From: Leucobacter aridicollis
GTDB lineage: Bacteria; Actinomycetota; Actinomycetes; Actinomycetales; Microbacteriaceae
DNA length: 64,000 bases
Direction of reading: 5' to 3'
Assembly: GCF_013409595.1 (NCBI RefSeq)
Contig: NZ_JACCBD010000001.1
Coordinates: 2,666,001-2,730,000, forward strand
Shown in pieces: positions 40,722 through 55,780 of this stretch. The notes beneath the pieces are model-generated. The model saw only the letters and a list, made by a program, of their open reading frames with translations, had not been told where the DNA came from and searched no databases. Each line of letters starts with the position of its first letter. Positions within the stretch are counted from its first letter, which is position 1. The translations under genes were made by a program, and so were the position numbers.

Positions 40722-42446
40722 ATGTTGAGAATGCTGGGTGCGATCCTCGCTTCCGCGCTTGTATTCGGCGCATCGGTGCCGGCTGACGCGACCGCTGCGT
40801 TCGCCGCCCCGCCCGCGGTCGAGCCGGCGTACACGGACCACAAGCGGCCGCTCGACGCCGAGGCGCCTGCACAAGAGGAAGCCCCGGAGACACCCGAGTC
40901 TCCTGACGTCGTCGGCGCGCCGACGACGCTCCCAGAGGTCGTTGGCGGCAGAGCCATCGTCGGCACGCCCGCGTCCGCGGCCCTCGGCGTCTGGCCTGAC
41001 GCCGAGCTCGAGTTCGAGATCATTTGGCAACGCGACGGAGTGGACATCGCTGGGGCCCAGGGCGACAGCTACACGCCGAGCGCTGACGACCTCGGGGCCA
41101 CCCTCAGCGCCGCGGTCACTGCGACCGCGCCGAGCGGCGCGTCTCTGACAGTCTCCACGCAGCCAGTCATCGTCGAGGCGGGCACGTTCGAACTCGCAGC
41201 GGTGAGCCTCACTGGCGCGACCTCCGTTGGCAGCGCCCTGAAGACGGTACTCGCTTCGCAGGCCCCCGCTGACGCCACGCTCAGCTACCGATGGACCCGC
41301 AGCGGCGCGACGATCGCGGGAGCGACCGGCGCAAGCTACGCGCTGACCGCTGCAGACCTCGGCAAAGCGGTCACCGTCACCGTTTCAGCGACGCGGCCCG
41401 GCTACGAAGTAGCCACCCGGACCTCAGCGCCGACCCGCGCGGTCACAGCCGGCGCCCTTGCCGTTGCAAAGCCGGCCATCTCCGGCACCGCCGCCGTCGG
41501 CAAGACGCTGACGGGCAGGCCAGGCACCTGGGGCCCGAAGCCAGTCAAGCTGCAGTACCAGTGGCTGCGAAACGGCAAGGCCATCCCGAAAGCGACAGGC
41601 GCCACCTACAAACTCGCGGCCGCCGACGCTGGCAAACGAATCACCTTCCGCGTCACCGGCACGCTTGGTGGATACACGACCGCGACGCAGACCTCCGGGG
41701 CGACCGCCGCGGTGCCGCGATCGCTGTCGGCCGCACCTGCTCCAGCCGTCGCCGGCACCGTGAAGGTCGGCCAGACCCTCTCCGCGAAGCCGGGAACCTG
41801 GAAGCCCGCTCCAGTCAAGCTCTCGTACCAGTGGCTTCGCAACGGCTCTGCAATCAAGGGCGCGACGAAGAGCACCTACAAGCTCACTTCGGCAGATGGT
41901 GGCGCGAAGATCAGCGTCAGGGTGACCGGGAAGAAGTCCGGCTACCTCACGGTCACCAAGACCTCTGCAACGAAGAGCGTGCCCCGTGTGCTCGGCACCT
42001 CCAAGCCAAAGATCTCCGGCACAAAACTTGTCGGATCGAGCCTCACCGTGAACCGTGGCAAGTGGACGGCCGGCACCACGCTCAAAGTTCAGTGGCTCCG
42101 CAACGGTGCCGCGATCAAGGGCGCGACGAAGACTACCTATAAGCTCTCCGCCGCGGACGCGGGCAAGCGGATCTCCGTTCGCGTCACTGGGAGCAAGTCG
42201 GGCTACACCGCCGCGTCGCAGACCTCGGCGGCCACCGGCAGCATCGGGTACCCGTCGCGCACCCGACCGAACAGCGTCGGGTCGTGCCCAAGCTGGGCGC
42301 CGGTAAAGGGCAACGTGAACTCGAGTCGCGGCACGAAGATCTACCACGTCCCAGGTAGCACCTACTATTCCCGAACGAATCCCGAGGAGTGTTTCTCGAA
42401 TGCGAGCGCCGCCCAACGGGCAGGTTACCGAGCGCCGCTGCGATAG
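40722..42446 (+). CDS. secreted Ig-like repeat protein with C-terminal metal-binding-like domain
   Basis: 574 aa. A signal peptide ends near AFAAPP (residue 29). Five tandem repeats of about 85-90 residues start near residues 73, 161, 249, 340 and 427; the best conserved read GTAAVGKTLTGRPGTWGP, QYQWLRNGKAIPKATGATYK and ADAGKRITFRVTG. The final 55 residues (from 520) hold KIYHVPGSTYYSRTNPEECF and ASAAQRAGYR, a small domain found at the C-termini of secreted nucleases and envelope proteins. No sortase motif or C-terminal helix is seen, so it is probably released or wall-associated. Its function is not evident; adhesion or carbohydrate binding is a guess. Confidence 0.85.
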   Translation: MLRMLGAILASALVFGASVPADATAAFAAPPAVEPAYTDHKRPLDAEAPAQEEAPETPESPDVVGAPTTLPEVVGGRAIVGTPASAALGVWPDAELEFEIIWQRDGVDIAGAQGDSYTPSADDLGATLSAAVTATAPSGASLTVSTQPVIVEAGTFELAAVSLTGATSVGSALKTVLASQAPADATLSYRWTRSGATIAGATGASYALTAADLGKAVTVTVSATRPGYEVATRTSAPTRAVTAGALAVAKPAISGTAAVGKTLTGRPGTWGPKPVKLQYQWLRNGKAIPKATGATYKLAAADAGKRITFRVTGTLGGYTTATQTSGATAAVPRSLSAAPAPAVAGTVKVGQTLSAKPGTWKPAPVKLSYQWLRNGSAIKGATKSTYKLTSADGGAKISVRVTGKKSGYLTVTKTSATKSVPRVLGTSKPKISGTKLVGSSLTVNRGKWTAGTTLKVQWLRNGAAIKGATKTTYKLSAADAGKRISVRVTGSKSGYTAASQTSAATGSIGYPSRTRPNSVGSCPSWAPVKGNVNSSRGTKIYHVPGSTYYSRTNPEECFSNASAAQRAGYRAPLR

Positions 42447-42455
42447 GAGAGGTTT

Positions 42456-42493
42456 CGGGGCGCAGGCGTCGGATCCACCGACCCTGCGCCCCG
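42456..42493. terminator. bidirectional terminator hairpin
   Basis: CGGGGCGCAGG pairs with CCTGCGCCCCG and the inner GTCGG with CCGAC, with a single bulged base and a 5-nt loop. It separates the converging repeat-protein gene and the catabolic operon. Confidence 0.65.
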
Positions 42494-42504
42494 GACAGGG
42501 CCTA

Positions 42505-44427
42505 CTAGATGACTCGGTCGTTCCCGCCGTCGACGCTCAAGTGGGCGCCGGTCGTCGCCGGGAACCGCTCGCAGAAGGCGACGACCGCCTCGGCGACGGT
42601 CCGACTGCGCACCTCAGTACGGAGTAGGTTGCGGGTGCGGTATTCCTCGACAGAGAGGCCGTAGTTCGCAGCGCGGGCCGCGAGCAGCTCAGGCGTCCAG
42701 ATCGCCGTGTCGAACACGGCGTCGGGCTCAACCTGATTCACCCTGATGCCGTCGGCGGCCCACTCGAGCGCCGCAACGCGCGCGAGCTGAGCGGCTGCAG
42801 TCTTGCTCGCCGAGTACGCGGCGACACCGGGGCCAGGGGCGGCGACGTTCTTCGTCGACACGAGCACGACGCGACCCCCGTTCGGCGCGAGGGCGAGCAC
42901 GGGGTGCACCGCACGAAACAGCCGCGCGACCGCGGTTACGTTCACGCGGAATGCGCGATCCCAGACCTCGTCGTCAAGCTCTGCGAGTGCCTGGCTCGGC
43001 GGGAAGATACCCGCCGCAACGACAACCATGTCGACGCCGCCGAACTCGCGAACCGCAGTCTCGACCGCCGCTTCGATAGTCTCGGGTGCACTCACGTCAC
43101 CGGTGACACCGCGCCAGGAATCGCTGTCGCTGAGCGTGGTGACCGCAGCGTTCAGGTCGATCCCGACGACCGCAGCGCCCTGCGCGAGGAGCAGCTCGGC
43201 GATGGCCCGGCCGATCCCCGACGCAGCACCAGTGACGACGGCGACCTCTCCCCCGAGCGGCTTCGCCTGCTTTCCTGCGAGCTTCAGCTGTTCGAGCGTC
43301 CAGTACTCGATATCGAAGGAGTCCGCCTCCGAGAGTGATCCGTACGTCCCAATCGCGTCGGCCGCGTCGATGACGTCGAGCGTGTGGAGAGCAATATCTC
43401 CGGCGATCTTGAGTTCCTTGGTCGTCGCGCCGGTCACCAGCAGCCCGAGCTCTGGGTCGAGCACGACGCGCGGCGCGGGGTGCAACGGCGACACGGCCGG
43501 GTTGGCCCGCGCGGCGTGCCGCTCAAAGTAGGCACGATACTCGGCCGCGTATGCCTCAACGTCACGACCGATCATGGGCGTGCGCTTGGTGTGGATGACG
43601 TGCTCGGGCGTCGCGGTTCCGCGGCGCGTAAGCTCAGCCAACCCGGGGCGGGCGGCGAACTCGGCGCCGCGCGCGGAGCGCGTCTGACGCACGAGCATGG
43701 GGGTGCCCGCGGCCCGAGACACGTCGCGCCGAAGCGTCGCGAGTTCTGTGACAGTTCCGGACGCCGGCGCTGTTCCGCCTGGGTTACCCCACGTGCTGAC
43801 GCCCAGGTGCGTATCGGCGAGCGAGACAAGCTCGCGGTGTCGCGAGAGCGCCGTATCGGCGGCGTCGGCGAAGGTAAAGAGCCCATGGTTTCGAAGCACC
43901 ACCGCGTCGACGCCCGACACGTCGCTGTCGGCGATGAGCCGCGCGAGCGGGAACCCGGGCATGACGTATGGCAGCACGAGCACGCGTTCCCCGAGCACGG
44001 CAACGATCTCCGCGTCAGAGAGCCCGCTGTTCGTCAGCGCGACAATCGCGTTCGCGTGCGAGTGCAGCACGGCCTTGCCCGGCAGGTAGGCGTGGAGCAG
44101 CGCCTCGATCGATGCCGTCGGCGCTGCCGCGTCGAGTGAGGCCTGACGCAGCTCGTTCACCATTGTCACATCGTCGAGTTCGGCGAGCGAGAGGAGTTCT
44201 GCGAGCCTGTCGAGGCGCAGCGGGGCGAAGCCCGGCGCCTCGATCGTGCCGAGATCCCACCCGCTGCCCTTGACGAGCACGAGATCAACCGGAGCACCCG
44301 TGACGTCGATACCGGTGGTCTTGATCGACGTGTTGCCGCCGCCGTGGAGCACGAGCGACGGGTCACCACCAAGCTCTCGGCTCACGCGGACGATGACGTC
44401 GAGGTCGCGCTGCAGTTCGGTTGTCAC
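42505..44427 (-). CDS. class II aldolase-short-chain dehydrogenase fusion (RhaD/SDR type)
   Basis: 640 aa, GTG start overlapping the kinase stop (GTGA). Residues 1-380 are a class II aldolase/adducin domain: LHGGGNTSIKTTG, HSHANAIVALTNSG and VLRNHGLFTFADAADTALSR supply the metal-binding and phosphate-binding pattern. From about residue 395 follows an SDR with AVVTGAASGIGRAIAELLLA (GxxxGxG), VVVAAGIFPPSQ and catalytic YSASK. Family members cleave rhamnulose-1-phosphate-type ketoses and reduce or oxidise the aldehyde. The reaction here is unknown. Last gene of the operon. Confidence 0.88.
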   Translation of the reverse strand: MTTELQRDLDVIVRVSRELGGDPSLVLHGGGNTSIKTTGIDVTGAPVDLVLVKGSGWDLGTIEAPGFAPLRLDRLAELLSLAELDDVTMVNELRQASLDAAAPTASIEALLHAYLPGKAVLHSHANAIVALTNSGLSDAEIVAVLGERVLVLPYVMPGFPLARLIADSDVSGVDAVVLRNHGLFTFADAADTALSRHRELVSLADTHLGVSTWGNPGGTAPASGTVTELATLRRDVSRAAGTPMLVRQTRSARGAEFAARPGLAELTRRGTATPEHVIHTKRTPMIGRDVEAYAAEYRAYFERHAARANPAVSPLHPAPRVVLDPELGLLVTGATTKELKIAGDIALHTLDVIDAADAIGTYGSLSEADSFDIEYWTLEQLKLAGKQAKPLGGEVAVVTGAASGIGRAIAELLLAQGAAVVGIDLNAAVTTLSDSDSWRGVTGDVSAPETIEAAVETAVREFGGVDMVVVAAGIFPPSQALAELDDEVWDRAFRVNVTAVARLFRAVHPVLALAPNGGRVVLVSTKNVAAPGPGVAAYSASKTAAAQLARVAALEWAADGIRVNQVEPDAVFDTAIWTPELLAARAANYGLSVEEYRTRNLLRTEVRSRTVAEAVVAFCERFPATTGAHLSVDGGNDRVI

Positions 44428-45914
44428 TTGTATTCCTCCCAGACGGGTCCCATTGCGGTGATGATGCGGTCGAACGTCGCGGCCTGTACGGCGTACTGTT
44501 CTCGTTCGGGGCCGGGCTCGACCACGAGCTCGGGGTCGGGTTCGACCCGCCACGCAGCCATGTCGCAGCCGATACCGTTCGCCGCGAGCGAGGCCACCCC
44601 GCGCGCCCCGAGTTCGGTGCCCAGCTGCCTGCGCATCGGGTGACCGACAACGTCGGCAAACATCTGCGCCCACTCGGGGTTCTTTGCGCCGCCGCCGGCG
44701 AGGGTCCATGGCTCATCGCTGAGCTCGGCATCACTGCTCGTCACCTTCTCAATCTGTACGCGGTGGTACTGCGTGATGCCCTCGGCGACCGCGCGCGCGA
44801 CGTGCGCGTATCCATGGCTGCCCTTGATGCCAAGCAGCGTGCCCGACGCACCGAGATGCTCGGGTGCGCCGTGGATGAACGGGAGAAAGATCAGCCCGTC
44901 GGCGAGCGGCGGTACGTTACCCGCCGCTTCGAGAAGCTCTCGTGGGGTGAGGGGGCAAGCCGCGCGATCACCGAGCACGTTGGCCGCCCACTCGATGCTC
45001 GCGGCCGACGTCGGCGCGACCTCCATCGCGAGCATGTAGCGCGGGTCGGGAAGCAGCGCGTTGATGGTCACCCTCGGAGGCTCCGCGTTCGCCGGCACGA
45101 CAACGCTGTTAATGGCCCACGTCCCGACGATCACCGTGACGTCGCCGCTTTCGGTCGATCCCGCGCCGAGCGGGCTCGCCACGCAGTCCATGCAACCGGC
45201 GACAACGGGCACGCCCACCGGCAGTCCCGTCTGCTGGGCCGCCTCAGCGGTCACCGTTCCGACAACGGCATCCGAGGAGTGCAACGCGGGCAGCAATCGC
45301 ATGAGGTCTTGCGGCACTCCGAGCATGTCGAAGACGGCCGGCTCGTATTCACGGGTGCGGAGATTCACCAGGCCGCACCCCGATGAGTCCGACAGGTCGG
45401 CGCTCGGAGCGCCAGTGAGGCAGACCGTAATCCAGTCCTTGCAGGTGAGCGCCCAGGCCGCGGCAGCGAGCGTCTCAGGCTCGTTGTCGTGCAGCCACCG
45501 TAGTAGCACCCCCGGCTGTGCTGCCCACGGAATTGAGCCGCTGATCTGGCGCACGGATTCGACTGTTTCGGGATCGAGCCCAGCGACGATCCGCTCGGCT
45601 CGGCTATCGGTTGATGCGATCGCAGTGCGCACCGGCGCGAGTTGCTCGTCGACGAGGTAGAGCCCGTTTCCGTGCCCGGTCGCGCCGATGCCGCGCACGA
45701 CCCAGCCGTCGCGAGCGAGCCCATCCTGGAGTTCGCGCAGCACGCCCGCGACGACGTCCCAGAGGGCGCGCATATCGATTTCCTGGCGCTCGCGCGAGAC
45801 AGCGACGCGGGGATTCGGAGCCGACACCGTCGCAATCTCATGCCCGACCTCGTCGAAGGCAGCCGCTTTCGCGCTCGTGAGCCCGACATCAATTCCGATG
45901 ACACAGGTCTTCAT
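44424..45914 (-). CDS. FGGY-family carbohydrate kinase
   Basis: 496 aa. The N-terminal phosphate-binding strand is VIGIDVGLTSAKAAAFDEVG and the ATP-side motif VTVIVGTWAIN. A substrate segment reads GHGNGLYLVDEQLAPVRTAI, then VAGCMDCVASPLGAG with the catalytic Asp, and LAGGGAKNPEWAQMFADVVG closes the fold. Overall arrangement reminds me of L-xylulose/erythritol-type kinases rather than AI-2 kinase LsrK or glycerol kinase; this is a judgement by eye. It shares 4-nt overlaps with the dehydrogenase in front and the aldolase-SDR behind. Confidence 0.9.
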   Translation of the reverse strand: MKTCVIGIDVGLTSAKAAAFDEVGHEIATVSAPNPRVAVSRERQEIDMRALWDVVAGVLRELQDGLARDGWVVRGIGATGHGNGLYLVDEQLAPVRTAIASTDSRAERIVAGLDPETVESVRQISGSIPWAAQPGVLLRWLHDNEPETLAAAAWALTCKDWITVCLTGAPSADLSDSSGCGLVNLRTREYEPAVFDMLGVPQDLMRLLPALHSSDAVVGTVTAEAAQQTGLPVGVPVVAGCMDCVASPLGAGSTESGDVTVIVGTWAINSVVVPANAEPPRVTINALLPDPRYMLAMEVAPTSAASIEWAANVLGDRAACPLTPRELLEAAGNVPPLADGLIFLPFIHGAPEHLGASGTLLGIKGSHGYAHVARAVAEGITQYHRVQIEKVTSSDAELSDEPWTLAGGGAKNPEWAQMFADVVGHPMRRQLGTELGARGVASLAANGIGCDMAAWRVEPDPELVVEPGPEREQYAVQAATFDRIITAMGPVWEEYK

Positions 45915-47560
45915 CGTTCTCCCCCACCCTGTTCCACACGCAGCGCGCGCGGTGCGAACCGCCGTACGGCGTGCCGGTAGCGCGCAAGCTCCTCAGCTGC
46001 GAGGTCTTGCGTCCAACCGACATGCTGCGTGAGCACCGCGGCGGCCCGAGGCGCCACGCTGAGCCCAACATCGCTATTCAACGCGATAGTCGTGCGTCGA
46101 AGCAACACGTCCTCGAGCGTGACCGCGCCCTCCTCGCGAACGGCGTAGACAAGCTCGGCCGCGATGGCGCCGGTCTCGTCGTCGATGATCTCCGCGAGCG
46201 AAGGATCCTCAGCCGCGAACGCCGCGACCTCCCACGCGAGCTCGCCGTAGACCGCCGCGAGCCGCTCTGCGGTGCGACTTGGGAGTGTACTTGCCGCAAC
46301 GAACCTCGCGCGGAACTCATCTACGTCCACGGCGGGGGCACCGGGGAATGGCAGCTTGTCGGTCCGTGAACGCCGGTGCGGCAGGCCGAGCGCCTTCTCG
46401 ATGACTTTCAGCGCCTGCACGCCAAGCGCACGGTGCGTCGTGTACTTCCCGCCGATGAGCGTGAAGAGTCCCCGCGAATCGCCCGTGTGGGCGACGATCT
46501 CACTGTCGCGCGTCACCGACGATGGGTCGGTGAGGTCGGCCACATACGGCAACGGGCGAACTCCGGAGTATGACCAGAGCACATCGTCGCTCGTGAGCTT
46601 CGCGCCGGGCAGAATCGTGTTGACCGCTCGCAGGAGGTAGTCGGTCTCGTCTCCGTCCGCGATGATCTCGTCGATGGACTCGTCGTATGGCAGGTCGGTC
46701 GTGCCGAGCATGTACTTCCCGTTGTGCCACGGCAAGACAAACATTGGCCGGTTGTCATCGGGGGACTCGAAGAAGATGCACTTATCGGGGGCGGTCGGGA
46801 ACGCGTCGACGACGAGGTGGCTACCCTTCGTCGGCCCGATCTTCCGCTCGTGCTCACCGTCGAGGTCGAGCACCGAATCGACCCAGGGGCCCGCCGCGTT
46901 GATCACGATGGGAGCGCGCAACGAACGTTGCTCGCCAGTCTCGCGATCTCGATACACGACCCCGGCGACGTGCCCACCCTCGTGGATGAGCGATAGCACG
47001 GGCGTATGGGTCAGGATCGTCGCGCCGTTGCGCGCGGCGTCGATCGCGATCTCTACCGCGAACCGCTCGGTGACTGGCACATGGGCGTCTTGGAAGAGAC
47101 CGCCCCATTTGACCCCGCCAGCTGCGATACCGGGGAAGTCGCGCTTCAGCCCGCGCGAGAACACGATGCGGTTGAACGGCAGCTTCTTGCCCACCGAGAG
47201 CACGTCGTGGAAGATGAGGCCGCACGAGAGCAGCCAGCCGGGCCGCGAGCCGTCCTTCGTGAACGGAATGAGCATCGGGTACGGGCGCACGAGGTGCGGC
47301 GCCGTGCGCAACAGAATGTTGCGCTCCCTGATCGACTCGAAGACGAGCGGGATCTCGAACCGTTCAAGGTACTTCAGGCCGCCGTGGATGAGACGCGACG
47401 AGATCGCCGAGGTGCGTGCGGCGAGGTCGTCCTGGTCAATCATCACGACGTTCAGGCCGCGCCGAGCCGCCTCGCGGGTGATCGCAAGGCCGTTGATTCC
47501 GGCGCCGATGACGACGACGTCGGCTGCGCTCGGTTCGGCGTAGGTACGGAGGGTAGGCAA
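45911..47560 (-). CDS. GlpD-like FAD-dependent polyol-phosphate dehydrogenase
   Basis: 549 aa, TTG start. It has FAD-binding VVVIGAGINGLAITREAARR, the GlpD signature SSRLIHGGLKYLERFEIPLV, INAAGPWVDSVLD, LPWHNGKYMLGTTDLPYDES and YSGVRPLPY, followed by a C-terminal DAO_C domain. That is the full layout of sn-glycerol-3-phosphate or erythritol-phosphate dehydrogenase. Placement between an LsrF-type gene and an FGGY kinase suggests oxidation of a phosphorylated polyol to a ketose phosphate, with electrons passed to quinones at the membrane. A gap of 54 nt from the LsrF-type gene is the second-longest spacing in the operon. Confidence 0.87.
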   Translation of the reverse strand: MPTLRTYAEPSAADVVVIGAGINGLAITREAARRGLNVVMIDQDDLAARTSAISSRLIHGGLKYLERFEIPLVFESIRERNILLRTAPHLVRPYPMLIPFTKDGSRPGWLLSCGLIFHDVLSVGKKLPFNRIVFSRGLKRDFPGIAAGGVKWGGLFQDAHVPVTERFAVEIAIDAARNGATILTHTPVLSLIHEGGHVAGVVYRDRETGEQRSLRAPIVINAAGPWVDSVLDLDGEHERKIGPTKGSHLVVDAFPTAPDKCIFFESPDDNRPMFVLPWHNGKYMLGTTDLPYDESIDEIIADGDETDYLLRAVNTILPGAKLTSDDVLWSYSGVRPLPYVADLTDPSSVTRDSEIVAHTGDSRGLFTLIGGKYTTHRALGVQALKVIEKALGLPHRRSRTDKLPFPGAPAVDVDEFRARFVAASTLPSRTAERLAAVYGELAWEVAAFAAEDPSLAEIIDDETGAIAAELVYAVREEGAVTLEDVLLRRTTIALNSDVGLSVAPRAAAVLTQHVGWTQDLAAEELARYRHAVRRFAPRALRVEQGGGER

Positions 47561-47614
47561 TGCAGGGGTCCCTTCAGACCGATGGGCGCCCGGTAGGCGC
47601 CCATCGAGGTGGTA

Positions 47615-48487
47615 TCAGTTCGCGAGTGTCTGGTAGAGGTCGAATGCCTCTTCGGGGGTGAGGCCGTCGTGGACGACGCCGCGCACAGCGGAGAGCATGG
47701 CTGCCGGGTGCTCTGACTGGAACACGTTGCGCCCCATGTCAACGCCCGCAGCGCCCTCCTGCATCGCGCGGTACGCAACGCGCAGCGCCTCGGGCTCCGA
47801 CACCTTCTTGCCGCCGGCGATGACGATCGGAACCGGGCACGCGCTGGTGATGGTCTCGAAGCCCTCCTCGACGTAGTAGGTCTTCACGAACGCGGCGCCG
47901 AGCTCTGCACTCATGCGGGTGGCGAGGCGGAAGTAGCGGGCGTCGCGCACCATGTCCTTACCGACGGCGGTGACGGCGAGCACGGGGATCCCGGCTGCCT
48001 GGCCCTGGTCGACGAGCGTCGTCATGTTCTTGATCGACTTCGTTTCATTCTCAGCGCCGACGAACACCTGCACCGCGAGTGCCGCAGCGTCGAGGCGGAC
48101 CGCGTCGTCGATCGAAACGGCGATCTCCTCGTTCGAGAGGTCGGTTAGCACGCTGGGCCCGCCCGAGGCGCGAAGCACGATGCCCTTGCCGTTGTCTGCC
48201 GGGATCGTCGTGCGCAGCGCACCGCGAGTGCACATGAGCGCGTCAGCCTGCGGCACGAGCGGAACGATGGAGCGATCGAGACGCTCGAGGCCGGAGGTCG
48301 GGCCCTGGAAGTAGCCGTGGTCGAACGCCAGCATCACGGTGTTGCCATCACGGGGGTCGAAGATGCGCGACAGGCGAGCCTTCATCCCCCAGTCCTGGCC
48401 GGCCTGGCCCTTGAGGTGGAATCCCTCACGTGCGGCGGCGCCGCCGGTGAAATTGGTACCTTCGCGGAGGTCGTCGAGGTCAGCCAT
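47615..48487 (-). CDS. lsrF-like: LsrF-type thiolase/class I aldolase
   Basis: 290 aa. Similarity to E. coli LsrF as I remember it runs the whole length: MADLDDLREGTNF at the start, LKGQAGQDWGMKARLSRIF, VMLAFDHGYFQGPTSGLERL, KDMVRDARYFRLATRMSAEL and KTYYVEEGF with the catalytic Lys202. CPVPIVIAGGKK and GVDMGRNVFQSEHPAAM complete the phosphate-binding end. E. coli LsrF converts 3-hydroxy-2,4-pentadione-5-phosphate plus CoA to dihydroxyacetone phosphate and acetyl-CoA. The rest of the Lsr pathway is missing here, so the substrate may differ. AAAGGAG precedes the ATG, which overlaps the permease gene by 8 nt. Confidence 0.88.
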   Translation of the reverse strand: MADLDDLREGTNFTGGAAAREGFHLKGQAGQDWGMKARLSRIFDPRDGNTVMLAFDHGYFQGPTSGLERLDRSIVPLVPQADALMCTRGALRTTIPADNGKGIVLRASGGPSVLTDLSNEEIAVSIDDAVRLDAAALAVQVFVGAENETKSIKNMTTLVDQGQAAGIPVLAVTAVGKDMVRDARYFRLATRMSAELGAAFVKTYYVEEGFETITSACPVPIVIAGGKKVSEPEALRVAYRAMQEGAAGVDMGRNVFQSEHPAAMLSAVRGVVHDGLTPEEAFDLYQTLAN

Positions 48488-49544
48488 TGGTGTTCTCCTT
48501 TTGTTGTGAAACGGAATCGGGGGAATCGGGTGCCACTGCGGCTGGCGCCGGCGAGACCGATGCCTTGAGTCGGGAAAGGCTGGAGCGGCCGGTGCCCGTC
48601 GCGAGCGATGCGACGATCACCACGAGCACGACGAGTACGCCCTTGAGCACGTTCTGAGCACCAACGGACCACCCGACAAGGTTCAAGAGGCCCGAGAGCA
48701 GCACGAAGAAGAGTGCGCCGGTCCAGGCGCCGATCGGCACGGGGCGGCCACCCGAGATGAGCGTGCCGCCGATGACGACGACCGCGATCGAGTCGAGCAT
48801 GTATGAGGTGCCGAGCACCGTACTCGGCGAGATGAACGCCGCGAGCAGGGCACCGACGAGCCCGGCAAGGCCGGCGCAGAGAATGTAGGCGGAGGCGGTG
48901 ACGAGCGTGACGGGGAGGCCCGCACGCTCCGCCGCCTTGGCGCTCTGTCCGACAGCGATCACCGAGTGCCCGAACCGAGTGCGACGCAGCACGAACCAGA
49001 TCACGACGGTGACGACGAGCACGAAGACGGCAATCAGTGGAATGCCAAGAATCTTCGCGTTCACGAGCTCGCGCAGCGCCTGCGGAGCGCTCCCGCGGGC
49101 AGAACCCGCGAGCAGCAGCGTCGCGCTCGTCACGATCAGGCTCGTCGCGAGCGTCGCGATGATGGGAGGCACTCGCAAGTAAAGGATCGCGGCGGTGCTC
49201 ACGAGCCCGGCTACGAGCCCCGCGGCGACGCCCGCAAGCACGCCGGCGAGCAGGCCCGCCGAGGACGCGACCAGCACGGAGACGTACGAGGACATTGAAA
49301 TGACCGTGCCAACGGAGACGTCGATGTTGCCGGGGCCAAGCGTGATGACGAGCATCTGTCCGAGCGCGACGAGCACGAGGAACGGTGCGAGCGAGAGTGC
49401 CTGCGTGAGCGGGTCGAACGGCGCGCCGGGGCGCACGGAGACAATGATGCCCCAGACGACGAGGACACCGACGAGAGACCAGCCCCAGGCGGGCCAGACG
49501 AAGCCCCGGCGCGGGGCGCGGTCAGAGTGTAGCTGCGTGTTCAT
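48480..49544 (-). CDS. sugar ABC transporter permease (RbsC-like), second copy
   Basis: 354 aa, about nine membrane helices of the BPD_transp_2 type. Landmarks are LGQMLVITLGPGNIDVSVGT, KILGIPLIAVFVLVVTVV, RRTRFGHSVIAVGQSAKAAE (the cytoplasmic EAA-like loop) and VVIGGTLISGGRPVPIGAWT. It overlaps the preceding permease by 4 nt and the LsrF-type gene by 8 nt. It probably heterodimerises with the permease at 49541-50512, as LsrC/LsrD or similar pairs do. Confidence 0.9.
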   Translation of the reverse strand: MNTQLHSDRAPRRGFVWPAWGWSLVGVLVVWGIIVSVRPGAPFDPLTQALSLAPFLVLVALGQMLVITLGPGNIDVSVGTVISMSSYVSVLVASSAGLLAGVLAGVAAGLVAGLVSTAAILYLRVPPIIATLATSLIVTSATLLLAGSARGSAPQALRELVNAKILGIPLIAVFVLVVTVVIWFVLRRTRFGHSVIAVGQSAKAAERAGLPVTLVTASAYILCAGLAGLVGALLAAFISPSTVLGTSYMLDSIAVVVIGGTLISGGRPVPIGAWTGALFFVLLSGLLNLVGWSVGAQNVLKGVLVVLVVIVASLATGTGRSSLSRLKASVSPAPAAVAPDSPDSVSQQKENTNG

Positions 49545-50512
49545 CGCGCAATCCTCTCCGTGATGATTCGACCCGCGAGCACGGCGAGCACGATGAGGCC
49601 CTGGGCCGCGGACTGCAGACTCGAAGGCAGGTTGATGAGGCTCAAGAGCACGGTGATGAGACCGAGCGTGACGGCGCCGATCGTGACGCCGACAGGCAGG
49701 GCGCGGCCGCCGGAGAACGTGCCGCCGCCGAGGATCACCGCGGCAATCGTCATGAGTGTGAACTCGCTGGCCGAATTGATGTCACCCGACCAGGTCTGGG
49801 AAGCGAGCAACAGGCCAGCAAGCACCAACAGGCCGGCGGCGATCACATAGGCGCTGATGCGCGTGCCGACGAGCGAGACGCCGGCCTTCTCGAGTGTGGG
49901 CGCCTGCGACCCCAGAGCGCGAATGCGCATGCCGACCTTCGCTCGACGAGAAATGAACCAGCCGAGCAGCGTTGCCAGTGCGATGAGCACGATCGGGGCA
50001 GGGAAGCTGGTCGGCCGCCACTGCGAGATCGCCGAGAGCCAGGCCGGCGTCTCGCCGCCAGGGGTTGGGCTGATCTGCAGGCCGATCCCGAGCCAGACAA
50101 ACGACATACCGAGCGTGACAATGATCGAGGGCACGCCGTGTCGCTGCACGACGTAGGCGAGCACCGCGTACACCGCGAGAATGCCTGCAACGAGCAGCAC
50201 AGCAATGAGCGGCGCGTCGGCAAGCAGCCTGGCCGCGATCACCGTGACGAGCCCGACCAGGTAGCCGACGCTCAGATCGATGTCGCCAACGCTCATCATG
50301 ATCATCTGCGCCTGGGCAGCAAGCACGAGCGGCACCGACGACATGAGCATCAGCGTGAGACCGGGAACGCTGAGGATCCCGGGCTGCAGGGACGCGGTGA
50401 TCGCGAAGATCACGGCGAGGGCGACGAACGACAGCAGTGCGGGCGAGCCGTTCTGGGCCCCGGCGCGCAAGCGCTCGCGCGGGCCGGGCGCAGACGAAAT
50501 GGTTGTGCTCAT
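49541..50512 (-). CDS. sugar ABC transporter permease (RbsC-like), first copy
   Basis: 323 aa, BPD_transp_2 fold. AQAQMIMMSVGDIDLSVGYL near the N-terminus, GVPSIIVTLGMSFVWLGIGL, RRAKVGMRIRALGSQAPTLE and AAVILGGGTFSGGRALPVG are the family landmarks. The ATG shares one base with the ATPase stop (TGATG). The first of two different permeases, so the transporter is probably a heterodimer. Confidence 0.9.
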   Translation of the reverse strand: MSTTISSAPGPRERLRAGAQNGSPALLSFVALAVIFAITASLQPGILSVPGLTLMLMSSVPLVLAAQAQMIMMSVGDIDLSVGYLVGLVTVIAARLLADAPLIAVLLVAGILAVYAVLAYVVQRHGVPSIIVTLGMSFVWLGIGLQISPTPGGETPAWLSAISQWRPTSFPAPIVLIALATLLGWFISRRAKVGMRIRALGSQAPTLEKAGVSLVGTRISAYVIAAGLLVLAGLLLASQTWSGDINSASEFTLMTIAAVILGGGTFSGGRALPVGVTIGAVTLGLITVLLSLINLPSSLQSAAQGLIVLAVLAGRIITERIAR

Positions 50513-52008
50513 CAGTTCTCCTCCGTCAGCCGGGGGTCTACGCCGAAGGAGTCGGCGATGATCCGTTCCTCGGAAATCTCTTCGTTGGCAAGCTCGCTCA
50601 CGATCCGGCCGGAGCGGAAGACGTACACGCGGTCGCAGTGCGCCATCTCGCCGTTCTCCGTCGAGTACCAAACGATCGAGCGGCCGCGGGAGGCCTCGAT
50701 ACGCATGAGTGCGTAAAGCTCGTTCTTCGTCTTGACGTCGACGCCGCGAAACGGGTCGTCGAGCAGCACGAGGGGCGCGTCGGTTGCGAACGCGCGCGCG
50801 ACGAGCACCTTCTGCTGGTTGCCACCAGACAGTGATGTGATCGGGGCCTTCGCGCCGCCCTTTACGTTGAGGCGCTGCACCCAGTCCGCGGCGAGCATGC
50901 GCTCGCGCGCGGCGGAGATCACGCCACCGACGGAGAACTGGCGGGCAGCGGACACCGTGAGGTTTTCTGCGACAGACCAGAGCGGGAAGATCCCACTCGT
51001 CTGGCGATCGCCGGGCACGTACGCTCTGCGGCCGCGCACGTCGACCCCGCGCGATCCTGACCACAGGCGCTGCAGCAGCTGCTCCTGGCCGTGCCCCGCG
51101 AGGCCTGCAAGGCCGATGATCTCGCCGCTGCGCACGGTGAATGAAGTGTCCTCGGTAGCGATCTCTGCGACGGTCTCGCCCGCCGTCGCGACCGGTGCAT
51201 CGCTGATCGCTTCGACGTTCTGCATCACGGCAGTGTCGGCATGGACGCCCCCGCCCATGATCGACAGCAACTCATCCTCGTCCGTCTCGCTCGCGGGCAG
51301 GATCTCAACGACCTTGCCGTCCTTCATCACAGCGATCCGATCGGCATTCGCGAGCACCTCCTGCATGCGATGGGAGATGAGGACCATGCCGACGCCGCGA
51401 GCCGCGAGCTCGCCGAGTGCCGCGTACATCTGCTTTGTGGCATCCATGCTTAGCGACTCAGTGGGCTCGTCAAGGATCAGCATGGCGAGCTTCGGGGTGC
51501 ACATCGCTCTGGCGATCTCGACCATTTGGCGCTGCGGCATCGAGAGCGAGCTCGTGCGCCGCACAATACTGATCCCGTGTCCGGGGAACACCCGGTCGAG
51601 AGTCTCGGTGACCTCGCGCTCGGCCCGTTGCTTCCAGTTCCAACCGCGGGCGGAGTCGTTGGACAGCGCAATGTTCTCGGCGACCGTGAGGTCGGGGCAC
51701 AGGGCGAGTTCCTGGTAAATCATGCGGACGCCGGCGCGAGCGGCGGCGCGCTGATCCCACGCGCCGCCCTCGTACCACTCCACCGATCCGGTATCTGTGG
51801 ATTCGCGGCCGGCGAGCACCCGCATGAGGGTGCTCTTGCCGGCGCCGTTGTGGCCGACCAGCCCGAGGATCTCCCCCGCTGCGACCGTGATATCGATTCC
51901 CGCGAGCGCGAGCGTGTTCCCGTACCGCTTCGACACCGCTGTTGCGCGCAGCAGGTCGTGCCCGGGCTGCGCCCCCGTCACGCGGGTGCTCTCCGTCTGG
52001 GTCGTCAT
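50512..52008 (-). CDS. sugar ABC transporter ATP-binding protein, two-domain (RbsA/MglA-like)
   Basis: 498 aa with two nucleotide-binding domains. The first has a canonical Walker A (GHNGAGKST), MIYQELALCPDLTVAENIAL and Walker B ILDEPTESLS. The second is degenerate: the P-loop reads GLAGHGQEQL without the Lys, signature SGGNQQKVLVARA is kept, and Walker B is LLDDPFRGVD with Asp in place of the usual Glu. One impaired site is normal in this family. The ATG at 52008 lies 31 nt from the binding-protein stop. Confidence 0.92.
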   Translation of the reverse strand: MTTQTESTRVTGAQPGHDLLRATAVSKRYGNTLALAGIDITVAAGEILGLVGHNGAGKSTLMRVLAGRESTDTGSVEWYEGGAWDQRAAARAGVRMIYQELALCPDLTVAENIALSNDSARGWNWKQRAEREVTETLDRVFPGHGISIVRRTSSLSMPQRQMVEIARAMCTPKLAMLILDEPTESLSMDATKQMYAALGELAARGVGMVLISHRMQEVLANADRIAVMKDGKVVEILPASETDEDELLSIMGGGVHADTAVMQNVEAISDAPVATAGETVAEIATEDTSFTVRSGEIIGLAGLAGHGQEQLLQRLWSGSRGVDVRGRRAYVPGDRQTSGIFPLWSVAENLTVSAARQFSVGGVISAARERMLAADWVQRLNVKGGAKAPITSLSGGNQQKVLVARAFATDAPLVLLDDPFRGVDVKTKNELYALMRIEASRGRSIVWYSTENGEMAHCDRVYVFRSGRIVSELANEEISEERIIADSFGVDPRLTEEN

Positions 52009-52039
52009 CGGGTTCTCCTTGTGAGCTGGTCGGCCGGGG

Positions 52040-53128
52040 TTACTTCTGAGCCGGAGCCTGGACGTCTTCGCCTGCGAGGAGCGCCTTGATGGCGGCTTCT
52101 GTCGAGGACTCATCCCACTGGTTCGCGGCGTACTCGTCCGCGCCGAGGGTCTCGACCCAGTAGTCGAGGCTGTCCTTCGTGACCTGCACGAGGGGCAGCA
52201 CGACCTGGTCGGGCACCTCTTCACCGCGCTCCTTCGCGAGCGAGACGTACAGCGCGGCGATGACCTGGCCGGGGTCGGTGAGGGCTGCGAACGAGCCGTT
52301 GTCGATCCCCTTGTCCTTCCAGAAGCTCAGCGACTTGCCGTCTGTGTCGAACACGACGACGGGTGCTTCGCGGTTCGCCGACTCGAACGCCTGAACGACT
52401 CCCATTCCGCCAATGCAGCCGGGAACGGCAGCGATATCAGGCATGGATCCGAGCACTGCGACGATCTCCTTTTGCGCGGTTGCCGCATCGCAGAAGCCGT
52501 TGACCTCCGCCGCCACCTTCACGTCGGGGTACTCAGCGAGGATCTCCTGCTGCCGCGCGTTGAACTCTTCCTCCGGCTGCGAGCCGATGACGCCGCGGTT
52601 CACGATGACGTTGCCCTTGCCTCCGATGGCCTCAAGCGCAGGCTCGAGCGAGTCAGCGCCCCACTGTCCGTAGTCGTTCCGAACGACCGTGCCACAGCTC
52701 GTGTCCATATCGGCGTCGAGGATGACGACGTTGATGCCCGCGGTGCAGGCTTCCTCAACGACGGGCACGAGCGCGGTCGACGACGCGGGGATCACCATGA
52801 GCACGTCTGGGTTCTGAAGCATGAGGCTGCGGATCTGCGAGGCCTGCTCGGTCGCGCTGTTCTCGCCCGGTGCATTCACGACCGAGTACTCGGAGACGAT
52901 TCCCTCGCCCTTGAGCTTTTCGGCTTCCTTCTCGAACTTGTCGATAAGGGTGAGGCGCCAGCCGTTGACGAACCCGTTCGAGAGCGCGACTTTCAGCCCC
53001 TTCGGGTCTCCGTCAGTCTTGCCATCCTCGGAGGGAGTCGCCGCGCCGGAGCAGCCGGCAAGCAGCAGCGCAGCCGCGCTTGCGGCAGCGATTCCGCCGA
53101 TCAGGCGGCGGTTGATCTTGAACTTCAT
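52040..53128 (-). CDS. sugar-binding lipoprotein (periplasmic-binding-protein-like, Peripla_BP_4)
   Basis: 362 aa. A lipoprotein signal (RRLIGGIAAASAAALLLAGC, Cys26) is followed by a type-I fold: KGLKVALSNGFVNGWRLTLI, LMLQNPDVLMVIPASSTALV, GINVVILDADM and VVFDTDGKSLSFWKDKGI. AGGAGA precedes the ATG. It does not resemble LsrB in my memory of that sequence beyond the fold. It captures the transported substrate on the outer membrane face. First gene of the operon, facing the GntR gene. Confidence 0.9.
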   Translation of the reverse strand: MKFKINRRLIGGIAAASAAALLLAGCSGAATPSEDGKTDGDPKGLKVALSNGFVNGWRLTLIDKFEKEAEKLKGEGIVSEYSVVNAPGENSATEQASQIRSLMLQNPDVLMVIPASSTALVPVVEEACTAGINVVILDADMDTSCGTVVRNDYGQWGADSLEPALEAIGGKGNVIVNRGVIGSQPEEEFNARQQEILAEYPDVKVAAEVNGFCDAATAQKEIVAVLGSMPDIAAVPGCIGGMGVVQAFESANREAPVVVFDTDGKSLSFWKDKGIDNGSFAALTDPGQVIAALYVSLAKERGEEVPDQVVLPLVQVTKDSLDYWVETLGADEYAANQWDESSTEAAIKALLAGEDVQAPAQK

Positions 53129-53203
53129 TGTTGTCTCCTGGTCGCTCCATTGCGCGGCGCGAAATTCACTTCCGTGCCACAAGATCTACATCACCTTGTA
53201 ATA

Positions 53204-53227
53204 ACCAACTGGTAATGACGAGTTGGT
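53204..53227. promoter_or_regulatory. candidate GntR operator
   Basis: ACCAACT (53204-53210) and AGTTGGT (53221-53227) form a perfect 7-bp inverted repeat, and ACCA-AC-TGGT overlaps its left arm. It lies in the 205-bp region between the divergent transporter operon and the GntR gene, 76 nt upstream of the binding-protein start. Position and symmetry suit repression by the GntR protein. Confidence 0.5.
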
Positions 53228-53333
53228 CGTGACTAGATTAGGGTGAAGTCATACCGCTGTCAATTCCGAAGCGTGCACCACCCGCAAACCGTTATGCTCG
53301 GGCGAGACCATCGCTCAGTCAGGAAGGCCAGCA

Positions 53334-54083
53334 ATGCAGAGTCCAGCCGCACCAGGGTCCCTCGACCGCTTCGCGGACGCCCCCCTGTGGCAACAGCTCT
53401 CAAGCGCCCTCAGAGAAGAGATCGATGAGGGGCGCCTGCGACCCGACCAAGCGCTACCCTCCGAGTCTGAGCTCATCAACCGATACGGCGTATCGCGCAC
53501 CGTTGTCAGGGAAGCGCTCGCAGACCTCGTGCGCGCCGGCCTCATTTACAAGGTGCGCGCCCGTGGCTCATTCGTCTCACCGCGCCGCCCTGAACTGAAG
53601 TTCGTCGGCTCGATGATGGGATCCTCGGCCGACCTGGAAGCGACCGGCCGCATCATCACCACCAAGGTGATCAACTTCGAGACCGACGCAGCCGACGCGA
53701 AGCTCGCGGAAGAACTCCAGATCGCCGTCGGCGAGCCGGTGATCCGGCTGCGCCGTCTGCGTTTCGTAGACACCGCACCGTGGTTGCTCGTCGACACGGT
53801 ACTCCCCGAACAGCGCTTCCCGAACCTCGCCCGCGCGAACCTCGAGAATCAGTCGCTCTACGACCACCTGCGGCGGCACTACGGGGTGCATCCGAGCGGG
53901 GCCGACCGCTGGATCAGCGCGGTGAACCCGTCTGTCGAGGACGCAGAGCTCCTGCAGTTGCGCCCTGAAGACCCGATCCTCGCCATCGACTCCATCGCCT
54001 GGGATGCGCAGGGAGTCCCGTTCGAGCGATACCACGCCCTGCACCGCAGCGACGGCAATAGGTTCTACCTGGGCATTCGGTAG
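53334..54083 (+). CDS. GntR/HutC-family transcriptional regulator
   Basis: 249 aa. The N-terminal winged helix-turn-helix reads ALPSESELINRYGVSRTVVR, and the C-terminal UTRA ligand-binding domain includes VINFETDAADAKLAEELQIA and WLLVDTVLPEQRFPNLARA. The ATG follows AGGAAGG. Divergent from the transporter-kinase-aldolase operon, it most likely senses the imported sugar derivative or its phosphate. Downstream is the unrelated XPB helicase gene with its own promoter. Confidence 0.9.
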   Translation: MQSPAAPGSLDRFADAPLWQQLSSALREEIDEGRLRPDQALPSESELINRYGVSRTVVREALADLVRAGLIYKVRARGSFVSPRRPELKFVGSMMGSSADLEATGRIITTKVINFETDAADAKLAEELQIAVGEPVIRLRRLRFVDTAPWLLVDTVLPEQRFPNLARANLENQSLYDHLRRHYGVHPSGADRWISAVNPSVEDAELLQLRPEDPILAIDSIAWDAQGVPFERYHALHRSDGNRFYLGIR

Positions 54084-54133
54084 CACCGTCACACACGCCC
54101 AATGCGCAGCGAACCGGGGTAGAATGGCCAGTT

Positions 54134-55780
54134 ATGACTCTCGGCCCCCTCATCGTTCAGAGCGACCACACCGTACTGCTCGAGGTAGCGCACCCTGACG
54201 CCGAGGATGCGCGACACGAACTCGCCGTCTTCGCCGAGCTTGAGCGCGCCCCCGAGCACATCCACACGTACAGGGTGACGCGTCTCGGGCTGTGGAACGC
54301 GCGCGCCGCTGGGCACACCGCCGAGGAAATCCTCGACACCCTCAACCGGCACGCCAAGTTCCCCGTGCCGAGCGGCGTCGCGTCGGAGATCGCCGACACC
54401 ATGCGCCGCTACGGCAGGCTCACCATCGAGCGCGACGCCGAGGGTGAACTCATCCTCCGCTCGGATGACGCCGCAATCATGCGCGAGGTGTCGTCGGCGA
54501 AGAAGATTGCGCCGCTGCTCGGCAACAAGATTGACGACCTCACCGCGCCGGTCGAGGCGTGGGCCCGCGGCGAGCTCAAGCAGCAGCTCGTCGCCCGCGG
54601 CTGGCCCGCGGAGGATCTCGCCGGGTACCGACCAGGCGAGCCCTACGACATTTCGCTCGAGGAGGGCGATTGGGAGCTCCGCGATTACCAGGCGAAGGCC
54701 GTCGAGGCGTTCCAGCGAGGCGGATCCGGCGTCGTCGTGCTTCCCTGTGGCGCGGGCAAGACCCTCGTCGGCGCGGCATCGATGGCCGCGGTCGGCGCGA
54801 AGACGCTGATCCTCGTCACCAACGCGGTCTCGGCGCGGCAGTGGCGCGACGAGCTCCTCAAGCGAACCAACCTCGCCGAGGATGAGATCGGCGAGTACTC
54901 GGGTCAGGTCAAAGAGGTCAAGCCCGTCACGATCGCGACCTACCAGATCCTCACCAGCAAGCGAAAGGGCGAGTACGCGCACCTCTCGCTCCTCGACGCC
55001 CAGGACTGGGGCGTCATTGTCTACGACGAGGTGCACCTGCTCCCCGCACCCGTGTTCAAGCTCACCGCCGAGCTGCAGGCGCGCCGCCGCCTTGGCCTCA
55101 CCGCAACGCTCGTGCGCGAGGACGGCCGCGAGGGTGACGTCTTCAGCCTCATCGGGCCGAAGCGCTACGACGCGGCCTGGAAAGACATCGAGGCGCAGGG
55201 ATTCATCGCCCCGGCGGAGTGCTTCGAGATCCGCATCGATCTCCCGGAGAGCGAGCGGCTCGAGTACGCCATCGCCGAAGATCAGGATCGCTACCGCATC
55301 GCTTCCTCCACCGCTCAGAAGGAACGCGTCGCTCGTGAGATCATCGACCGGCACGCCGGTGAGAGCATCCTCGTCATCGGGCAGTACATCGACCAGCTGG
55401 AGTCGATGGCCGAGGCCCTCGGTGCTCCGCTCATCACCGGGCAGACGCCGGTGAACGAGCGCGAGGACCTGTTTAACGCGTTCCGCAGCGGGGAAGAGAA
55501 GATCCTCGTCGTGTCGAAGGTCGCGAACTTCTCGGTCGATCTCCCCGACGCCTCGGTTGCGATCCAGATTTCGGGCTCGTTTGGATCGCGTCAGGAGGAG
55601 GCACAGCGCCTCGGCCGGCTTCTCCGGCCCAAGCAGACCGACGTGAAGGCCTCGTTCTACACGCTCATCGCGCGCGACACCGTCGACCAGGACTTCGCGC
55701 AGAACCGCCAGCGTTTCCTCGCCGAGCAGGGCTACGCCTACACGATCCTTGACGCGGAGGACCTGGCGGCGGTCCGCTAG
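54134..55780 (+). CDS. XPB-type DNA repair helicase
   Basis: 548 aa. An N-terminal DUF3558-free XPB-like domain precedes superfamily 2 motifs: LRDYQAKAVEAFQ (Q-motif), Walker A PCGAGKT with Lys209, DEVH at residues 298-301, and SATATLV-like motif seen here as LGLTATLVRED. Helicase C follows: RILVIGQYIDQ-like ESILVIGQYIDQLESMAE and EEAQRLGRLLRPK (motif VI). Actinobacterial XPB acts with a partner nuclease or the helicase-associated protein in repair. The ATG has TAGAAT eight bases upstream. The usual helicase-associated neighbour lies 13.5 kb away here. Confidence 0.93.
   Translation: MTLGPLIVQSDHTVLLEVAHPDAEDARHELAVFAELERAPEHIHTYRVTRLGLWNARAAGHTAEEILDTLNRHAKFPVPSGVASEIADTMRRYGRLTIERDAEGELILRSDDAAIMREVSSAKKIAPLLGNKIDDLTAPVEAWARGELKQQLVARGWPAEDLAGYRPGEPYDISLEEGDWELRDYQAKAVEAFQRGGSGVVVLPCGAGKTLVGAASMAAVGAKTLILVTNAVSARQWRDELLKRTNLAEDEIGEYSGQVKEVKPVTIATYQILTSKRKGEYAHLSLLDAQDWGVIVYDEVHLLPAPVFKLTAELQARRRLGLTATLVREDGREGDVFSLIGPKRYDAAWKDIEAQGFIAPAECFEIRIDLPESERLEYAIAEDQDRYRIASSTAQKERVAREIIDRHAGESILVIGQYIDQLESMAEALGAPLITGQTPVNEREDLFNAFRSGEEKILVVSKVANFSVDLPDASVAIQISGSFGSRQEEAQRLGRLLRPKQTDVKASFYTLIARDTVDQDFAQNRQRFLAEQGYAYTILDAEDLAAVR

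Follow-up and report, generated by a model that had tools for sequence, protein, structure and literature searches.

In a 64,000-nt stretch of the Leucobacter aridicollis genome (hereafter the window), an operon of eight genes with a divergent regulator is proposed to serve the uptake and catabolism of a methyl-ended (or similarly blocked) C5 sugar alcohol, for example 5-deoxyribitol, to dihydroxyacetone phosphate (DHAP) and acetyl-coenzyme A (acetyl-CoA), a reading given a probability of about one half. The genes encode a CUT2-type importer, an LsrF-type thiolase, a GlpD-like flavin adenine dinucleotide (FAD) dehydrogenase, an FGGY carbohydrate kinase and a fusion of a class II aldolase with a short-chain dehydrogenase/reductase (SDR), and the whole works like a polyol front end attached to the last part of autoinducer-2 (AI-2) disposal. 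We infer the substrate and every reaction from gene content, conservation, active-site residues and partner patterns, the last observed in the LsrF neighbourhoods of other genomes (loci numbered with an L).

The name of the LsrF family, 3-hydroxy-5-phosphonooxypentane-2,4-dione thiolase, gives its substrate, 3-hydroxy-2,4-pentanedione-5-phosphate (P-HPD). Its products are acetyl-CoA and DHAP according to the available text of PMC7828210. Sequence evidence puts the window enzyme (LsrF-type thiolase/class I aldolase, 47615..48487, minus strand) at the level of an orthologue, with an active site that does not vary: it scores 462 bits against a cut-off of 297 for the NF006081 equivalog and 378 bits in its PDB LsrF match, and the whole-length likeness to the E. 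coli protein described in the initial annotation was recovered over residues 1-286, catalytic Lys included. The active-site residues named in the accessible part of PMC2728841 (Asp57, His58, Lys203, Gly226/227, Asp251, Met252, Gly253 and Arg254) are all nine kept, and they are invariant in 95/95 aligned rows, the window row counted. The LsrF tree places the protein in a clade made up entirely of operon members (15 rows) and supported at SH-aLRT 95. The gene is rare in the window's family, being found in ten of the 199 genomes drawn, the window's counted (E 1e-40); class-wide searches added little, since LsrF (5/289 genomes in the class of genome G611) and the operon's sugar-binding protein (SBP; 6/394 genomes) proved rare there too.

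The operon is real. Its order, namely a divergent GntR followed by SBP, ATPase, two permeases, LsrF, GlpD-like dehydrogenase, FGGY kinase and aldolase-SDR fusion, recurs in nine Microbacteriaceae loci (L002-L010) among the best 80 of 565 LsrF relatives, which made up the core survey, and in five more fusion-bearing operons from further genomes of the same family (L107, L116-L119). The conserved neighbourhood for which the initial annotation had proposed a search is thus present, with nine genes in the same order in 13/14 other Microbacteriaceae loci and eight seen in the fourteenth, L002, which begins after GntR. Because this order recurs, the operon is not a chance arrangement. Flanking genes are not common to the whole set, being shared only by close relatives (L004/L006/L008, and the Microbispora loci).

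A form of the operon lacking the fusion was found in Streptomyces, Microbispora and Nonomuraea (L012-L015, L018, among the best 80) and in three distinct loci of one other family, which lie inside the Microbispora group of the LsrF tree (L109-L111). A search with all nine proteins recovered eight of the nine genes, GntR included, in 8/8 of these fusion-less actinobacterial loci. Five of the genomes were searched for a fusion elsewhere: three hold one distant copy (36-37%), presumably of the RhaEW type, and two hold none at E 1e-40. A partial cluster was observed in Mycobacterium sp. 236 (L022:9935-12593), where GntR, LsrF and a GlpD-like gene stand with no kinase or CUT2 importer nearby and a relative of the fusion (residues 11-469 matched, 42%) lies about 7 kb away.

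Partners of LsrF were then counted across the 80 loci, a dehydrogenase being an SDR, a GlpD-like protein or a medium-chain (MDR) alcohol dehydrogenase scoring >150 bits with home-made models within 9 kb of LsrF. One was present in 53/80 loci, and an SDR in 44/80. Loci with an LsrB-type receptor had none (0/8). The fusion's SDR accompanied MtnA in six of seven loci, the contig of the seventh (L077) ending inside the fusion, and all five DhaK loci carried an SDR or fusion, although identity to the window protein drops to 31-35% in L053 and L066; loci with kinase and GlpD-like genes had one or two dehydrogenases. The difference between uncut MtnA/DhaK loci (SDR in 11/11) and LsrB loci (0/8) gives P = 1.3e-5 (Fisher, uncorrected for shared ancestry). 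AI-2 brings two carbonyls, a deoxyaldose or ketose one and a polyol none, and so the pattern fits a substrate needing two carbonyls. The two dehydrogenases of the window operon, GlpD-like and SDR, fit a polyol substrate; for a kinase and GlpD-like enzyme with no SDR beside them, a 1-deoxyketose would be the fitting substrate.

Only the SDR half of the fusion, as an open reading frame (ORF) of about 250-280 aa, occurs in seven LsrF clusters. It adjoins LsrF in L035, L063 and L089, is separated from it by one epimerase gene in L073, L076 and L081, and lies past DhaK-DhaL in L030. Given these seven clusters and the eight fusion-less loci, cleavage seems to fall to LsrF throughout, with the dehydrogenase of the fusion adjusting the oxidation level.

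The link to methylthioribose-type genes is physical. In seven of the 57 non-actinobacterial, non-lsr loci (those left of the 80 once 14 operon loci, L022 and eight lsr loci are removed) MtnA is linked to LsrF, where 0.26 would be expected of a single gene per 4 Mb. Since three of the seven belong to one SAR324-type clade, about four lineages were counted, with P about 1e-4 for a pattern spotted and tested on the same loci with no shuffled control. Genome-wide presence of MtnA was set aside as evidence in favour of this linkage, as 32/39 genomes have the gene, a count without a control. The arrangement MtnP-MtnA-fusion-LsrF is seen in L056. Examples of MtnP, MtnA, MtnK, DhaL and RPE (L056, L036, L077, L080, L016) pass curated cut-offs, while the DhaK of L080 (348 vs 406) and an epimerase-like protein of L128 (121 vs 213) fall below theirs. 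Because fusions similar to the window's and LsrF cluster with MtnP, MtnK and MtnA, they probably act downstream of a 5-deoxy- or methylthio-pentulose-1-phosphate.

A prediction set beforehand, that LsrB loci would lack a dehydrogenase and Mtn or Dha loci would carry one, was applied to 394 genomes from the family of G621 (a Paracoccus). Nine had LsrF; two were already known (L077, L080) and the rest gave loci L127-L134, which are not copies of earlier loci (their best long DNA matches reach about 85% at most), L131 and L132 being close kin of L062. The prediction held in four of the five classifiable new loci: neither LsrB-type locus (L131, L132) has a dehydrogenase, and two of three Mtn-type loci (L128/L139 and L129/L140) carry MtnK, MtnA and the full fusion. 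The first of these (L128:8996-19001 with L139:1-3597) encodes an ATP-binding cassette (ABC) importer, MtnK, MtnA, a SorC regulator, the fusion, an epimerase-like protein and LsrF; in the second, an ABC importer, an epimerase-like protein and LsrF likewise accompany the Mtn genes and fusion. MtnK and MtnA of L128 exceed NCBIfam cut-offs, and the best PDB match of its SBP is 4ry8, titled as a 5-methylthioribose transporter SBP (225 bits). By gene content, the L128/L139 cluster resembles a full pathway for methylthioribose/5-deoxyribose uptake that runs through LsrF. L127, L133 and L134 are unclassed; L127 combines an importer, an epimerase-like gene, LsrF and SorC, with neither an Mtn gene nor a fusion across 51 kb and one unlike SDR about 19 kb off.

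In the route proposed for the window, the polyol would be imported by the CUT2 ABC transporter and its CH2OH end phosphorylated by the FGGY kinase, after which the GlpD-like flavoprotein would oxidise the carbon beside the phosphate (C2) to a 5-deoxypentulose-1-phosphate, the SDR half would oxidise C4 to give P-HPD, and LsrF with CoA would convert P-HPD to DHAP and acetyl-CoA. GlpD attacks the position next to the phosphate, and in our stereochemical reading sn-glycerol-3-phosphate would match C2 of 5-deoxy-D-ribitol-1-phosphate. The kinase and GlpD-like enzyme would stand in for MtnK and MtnA and, on our reading of the chemistry, a single C4 oxidation would turn 5-deoxyribulose-1-phosphate into the LsrF substrate. 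The aldolase half would play an accessory part and might, as an epimerase or ketol isomerase, prepare the SDR or LsrF step; an lsr operon described below (L114) suggests the isomerase role, AraD-like C4 epimerisation being the other choice. In the parts of the two papers available, the MtnA product is 5-deoxy- or 5-methylthio-ribulose-1-phosphate (PMC6079011, PMC10986504) and rats excrete 5-deoxyribitol (PMC6079011), so that this polyol exists as a nutrient. The initial annotation had envisaged a polyol being phosphorylated, oxidised to a ketose phosphate and cleaved to DHAP and acetyl-CoA, an outline which the comparisons support; its further idea of two cleavage enzymes working on successive or alternative intermediates finds no support, given the SDR-only clusters and the loci that lack the fusion.

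Among known routes, the DHAP shunt for 5-deoxyribose disposal (MtnK or DrdK, MtnA or DrdI, and a class II aldolase) would share with this proposal the 5-deoxypentulose-1-phosphate, the DHAP product and an aldolase domain. The window would instead enter by kinase and GlpD-like dehydrogenase, and LsrF thiolysis would release acetyl-CoA, whereas aldol cleavage releases acetaldehyde. Neither MtnK/DrdK nor MtnA/DrdI is in the operon (MtnK was searched for there and not genome-wide), and the term LsrF does not appear in the four papers examined for it.

Several observations weigh against a deoxypentitol route. The methyl end is suggested by analogy with Mtn genes of other clades; the window operon has no Mtn gene and its genome no MtnA (PF01008) match. 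One new locus, L130, has MtnK and MtnA with no fusion or SDR within 35.5 kb. In the core survey 19/80 loci have neither a dehydrogenase nor LsrB at the thresholds used, among them L031 and L077, which are cut inside the fusion, and L067, whose SDR at 148 bits lies just under the threshold. SDRs are common genes, and the partner counts stand without a shuffled control. In L076 a further class II aldolase lies 3.5 kb away, and L114 has retained the aldolase half and lacks the SDR, so that the SDR is not the sole half of the fusion found with LsrF. Outside the 80, L112 joins an LsrB-like SBP to an alcohol dehydrogenase; L113, a further exception, combines an alcohol dehydrogenase and an SDR with an FGGY kinase. 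Lastly, the structural neighbours of the window SBP differ by only two to three Z units, so that its polyol specificity is no more than putative.

The fusion also admits a different account, in which a 6-deoxyhexitol or deoxypentitol is processed to a ketose-1-phosphate; the aldolase half would split this into DHAP plus an aldehyde for the SDR half to oxidise, leaving LsrF a side role. This would mirror RhaEW, the rhamnulose-phosphate aldolase/lactaldehyde dehydrogenase, which has the same architecture and, in the available text of PMC3870299, is a shown aldolase and aldehyde dehydrogenase, a precedent that counts against the deoxypentitol route; moreover, the aldolase half keeps its Glu and three His (Glu, HxH, His; metal and acid residues) in 40/40 rows showing the site. 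We nevertheless consider the account unlikely. The window fusion (42505..44427, minus strand, GTG start; aldolase half about residues 1-384, SDR half about 388-640) scores 396 bits against the RhaD-ADH cut-off of 568 (TIGR02632; 567.75), is linked to LsrF and has no rhamnose isomerase in its operon. Eight distinct loci keep LsrF, kinase and GlpD-like dehydrogenase and lack the fusion, the five of their genomes that were searched offering at most the distant copies described above, and LsrF clusters with the SDR half only exist. Being below cut-off and dispensable in relatives, the window fusion was rejected as a RhaEW. According to the same partly available paper, RhaEW without NAD+ gave no detectable DHAP or lactate (PMC3870299), a possible sign that the aldolase-SDR fusion family oxidises before it cleaves.

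An ordinary pentitol (ribitol, arabitol or xylitol) could follow the same steps, with LsrF releasing glycolyl-CoA in place of acetyl-CoA. The best curated match of the kinase, xylulokinase (below cut-off), would suit this, as would the SBP, whose nearest structures after its orthologue are three Mycobacterium smegmatis carbohydrate SBPs with what we take to be polyol ligands. The possibility is rather improbable, given that the LsrF active site equals that of enzymes acting on the methyl-ended AI-2 skeleton and that related fusions accompany MtnK, MtnA and MtnP. Erythritol catabolism likewise pairs a sugar ABC importer with an FGGY kinase (EryA) and a polyol-phosphate dehydrogenase of the GlpD-like kind (EryB); judged by gene description, the window operon has LsrF and the aldolase-SDR fusion where that pathway has the Ery isomerases.

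Uptake and disposal of an AI-2-like compound with its own receptor, with reduction and re-oxidation in place of LsrG, appears highly improbable. Like the lsr system (LsrB/ACD, LsrK, LsrG, LsrF), the window operon has a CUT2 importer, an FGGY kinase and an LsrF, whose active site is identical in both, and LuxS is encoded in the window's genome. However, the SBP is far from LsrB (at E 1e-5 it matches no LsrB family, and the SmLsrB structure gives just 23 bits), the kinase reaches 139 bits where the AI-2 kinase cut-off is 528, the regulator belongs to another family (GntR with UTRA) than LsrR, and a home-made LsrG model matches no ORF of at least 50 aa in 42001-54600, where the gaps are too small. 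The absences of LsrK, LsrG and LsrR and the unlikeness to LsrB given in the initial annotation were thereby borne out, and the operon was rejected as an lsr system. LuxS occurs in only four of 19 genomes searched (one genome entered twice; the Mycobacterium has the partial cluster), and a dione needs no two dehydrogenases. An LsrG-like gene may nonetheless exist in Leifsonia sp. Root4, where a small ORF directly follows the fusion (L007:16075-16377; 35 bits to the home-made model, no NCBIfam match). In the same family, the lsr operon L114 (L114:6301-15999), whose receptor passes LsrB (480 vs 384) and kinase the AI-2 kinase model (696 vs 528) with a regulator below LsrR (244 vs 486), carries the aldolase half as a separate gene next to LsrF and yields no LsrG match; that aldolase half is a candidate LsrG replacement.

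Beyond the window, a tentative and somewhat doubtful generalisation is that LsrF is at root the common terminal thiolase of widespread 5-deoxypentose pathways, the AI-2 lsr operon being a redox-free special case. The front ends would be interchangeable (MtnP or MtnK with MtnA; DhaKL; FGGY kinase with GlpD-like dehydrogenase; LsrK), a dehydrogenase, mostly the fusion, would bring each route to P-HPD, the window would be the polyol entry, and the 5-deoxysugar carbon of S-adenosylmethionine by-products would reach DHAP and acetyl-CoA with no free aldehyde. If so, many LsrF genes outside lsr operons gain a non-quorum-sensing function, an acetyl-CoA-yielding, non-aldehyde route is added to known 5-deoxyribose/methylthioribose salvage, the pairing of LsrF and the aldolase-SDR fusion across many phyla is explained, and an LsrF gene alone is poor ground for calling a genome AI-2-degrading. 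The wider LsrF-SDR partnership and the MtnK/MtnA/MtnP link are not visible from the window sequence alone. Among the open-access papers listed in literature searches, none describes the operon, or LsrF with MtnA/MtnK, 5-deoxyribose or a polyol operon.

The remaining genes lie where the initial annotation placed them, on the minus strand with a divergent GntR, and its family assignments agree with profile matches; the SBP, permeases, kinase, dehydrogenase and fusion each miss the equivalog cut-offs that apply to their listed matches. The FGGY kinase (44424..45914) is nearest the XylB and LsrK families, with 208 against 380 bits for XylB. The GlpD-like FAD polyol-phosphate dehydrogenase (45911..47560, TTG start; PF01266 and PF16901) misses two GlpD equivalog cut-offs narrowly (342 vs 360 and 321 vs 352 bits) and, with scores so close, is a near relative of GlpD; its longest paralogue match in its own genome is 33% identical. 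For the fusion, NF006196 gives 810 vs 831 bits, YxxxK of the SDR half is kept in 59/59 rows, and one single match occurs in the window's genome (E 1e-30). The SBP (52040..53128; PF13407), probably a lipoprotein by a lipobox Cys seen by eye, is 47% identical to 4pe6. Its model (mean pLDDT, the predicted local distance difference test, 80.8; 12-sequence alignment) matches this orthologue best and then a series of closely spaced scores, and no ligand was called from it. The two-domain ABC ATPase (50512..52008; profile matches) and permeases 1 (49541..50512) and 2 (48480..49544; both PF02653) complete the importer.

The regulator (53334..54083, plus strand) has library matches to the GntR and UTRA domains. 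A putative GntR operator at 53204..53227, to which no strand applies, consists of two inverted, overlapping half-sites ACCAACTsGTmATkA; the pattern has one further match in the 3.57 Mb genome, equal to the count of a reversed control pattern, and a second GntR target elsewhere was dropped. The eight genes had been described as overlapping, which applies to five of seven junctions (1-8 bases), gaps of 31 and 54 bases separating SBP from ATPase and LsrF from the GlpD-like gene; no other gene fits the intergenic gaps of the operon. Inside the 54-base gap, a perfect 10-base inverted repeat with a 5-base loop (47581-47605, by eye) is a possible mRNA hairpin. In two other loci, L065 and L070, LsrF without a dehydrogenase stands one ORF downstream of what appear by eye to be SUF iron-sulphur assembly genes, and L105 joins both in the LsrF tree.

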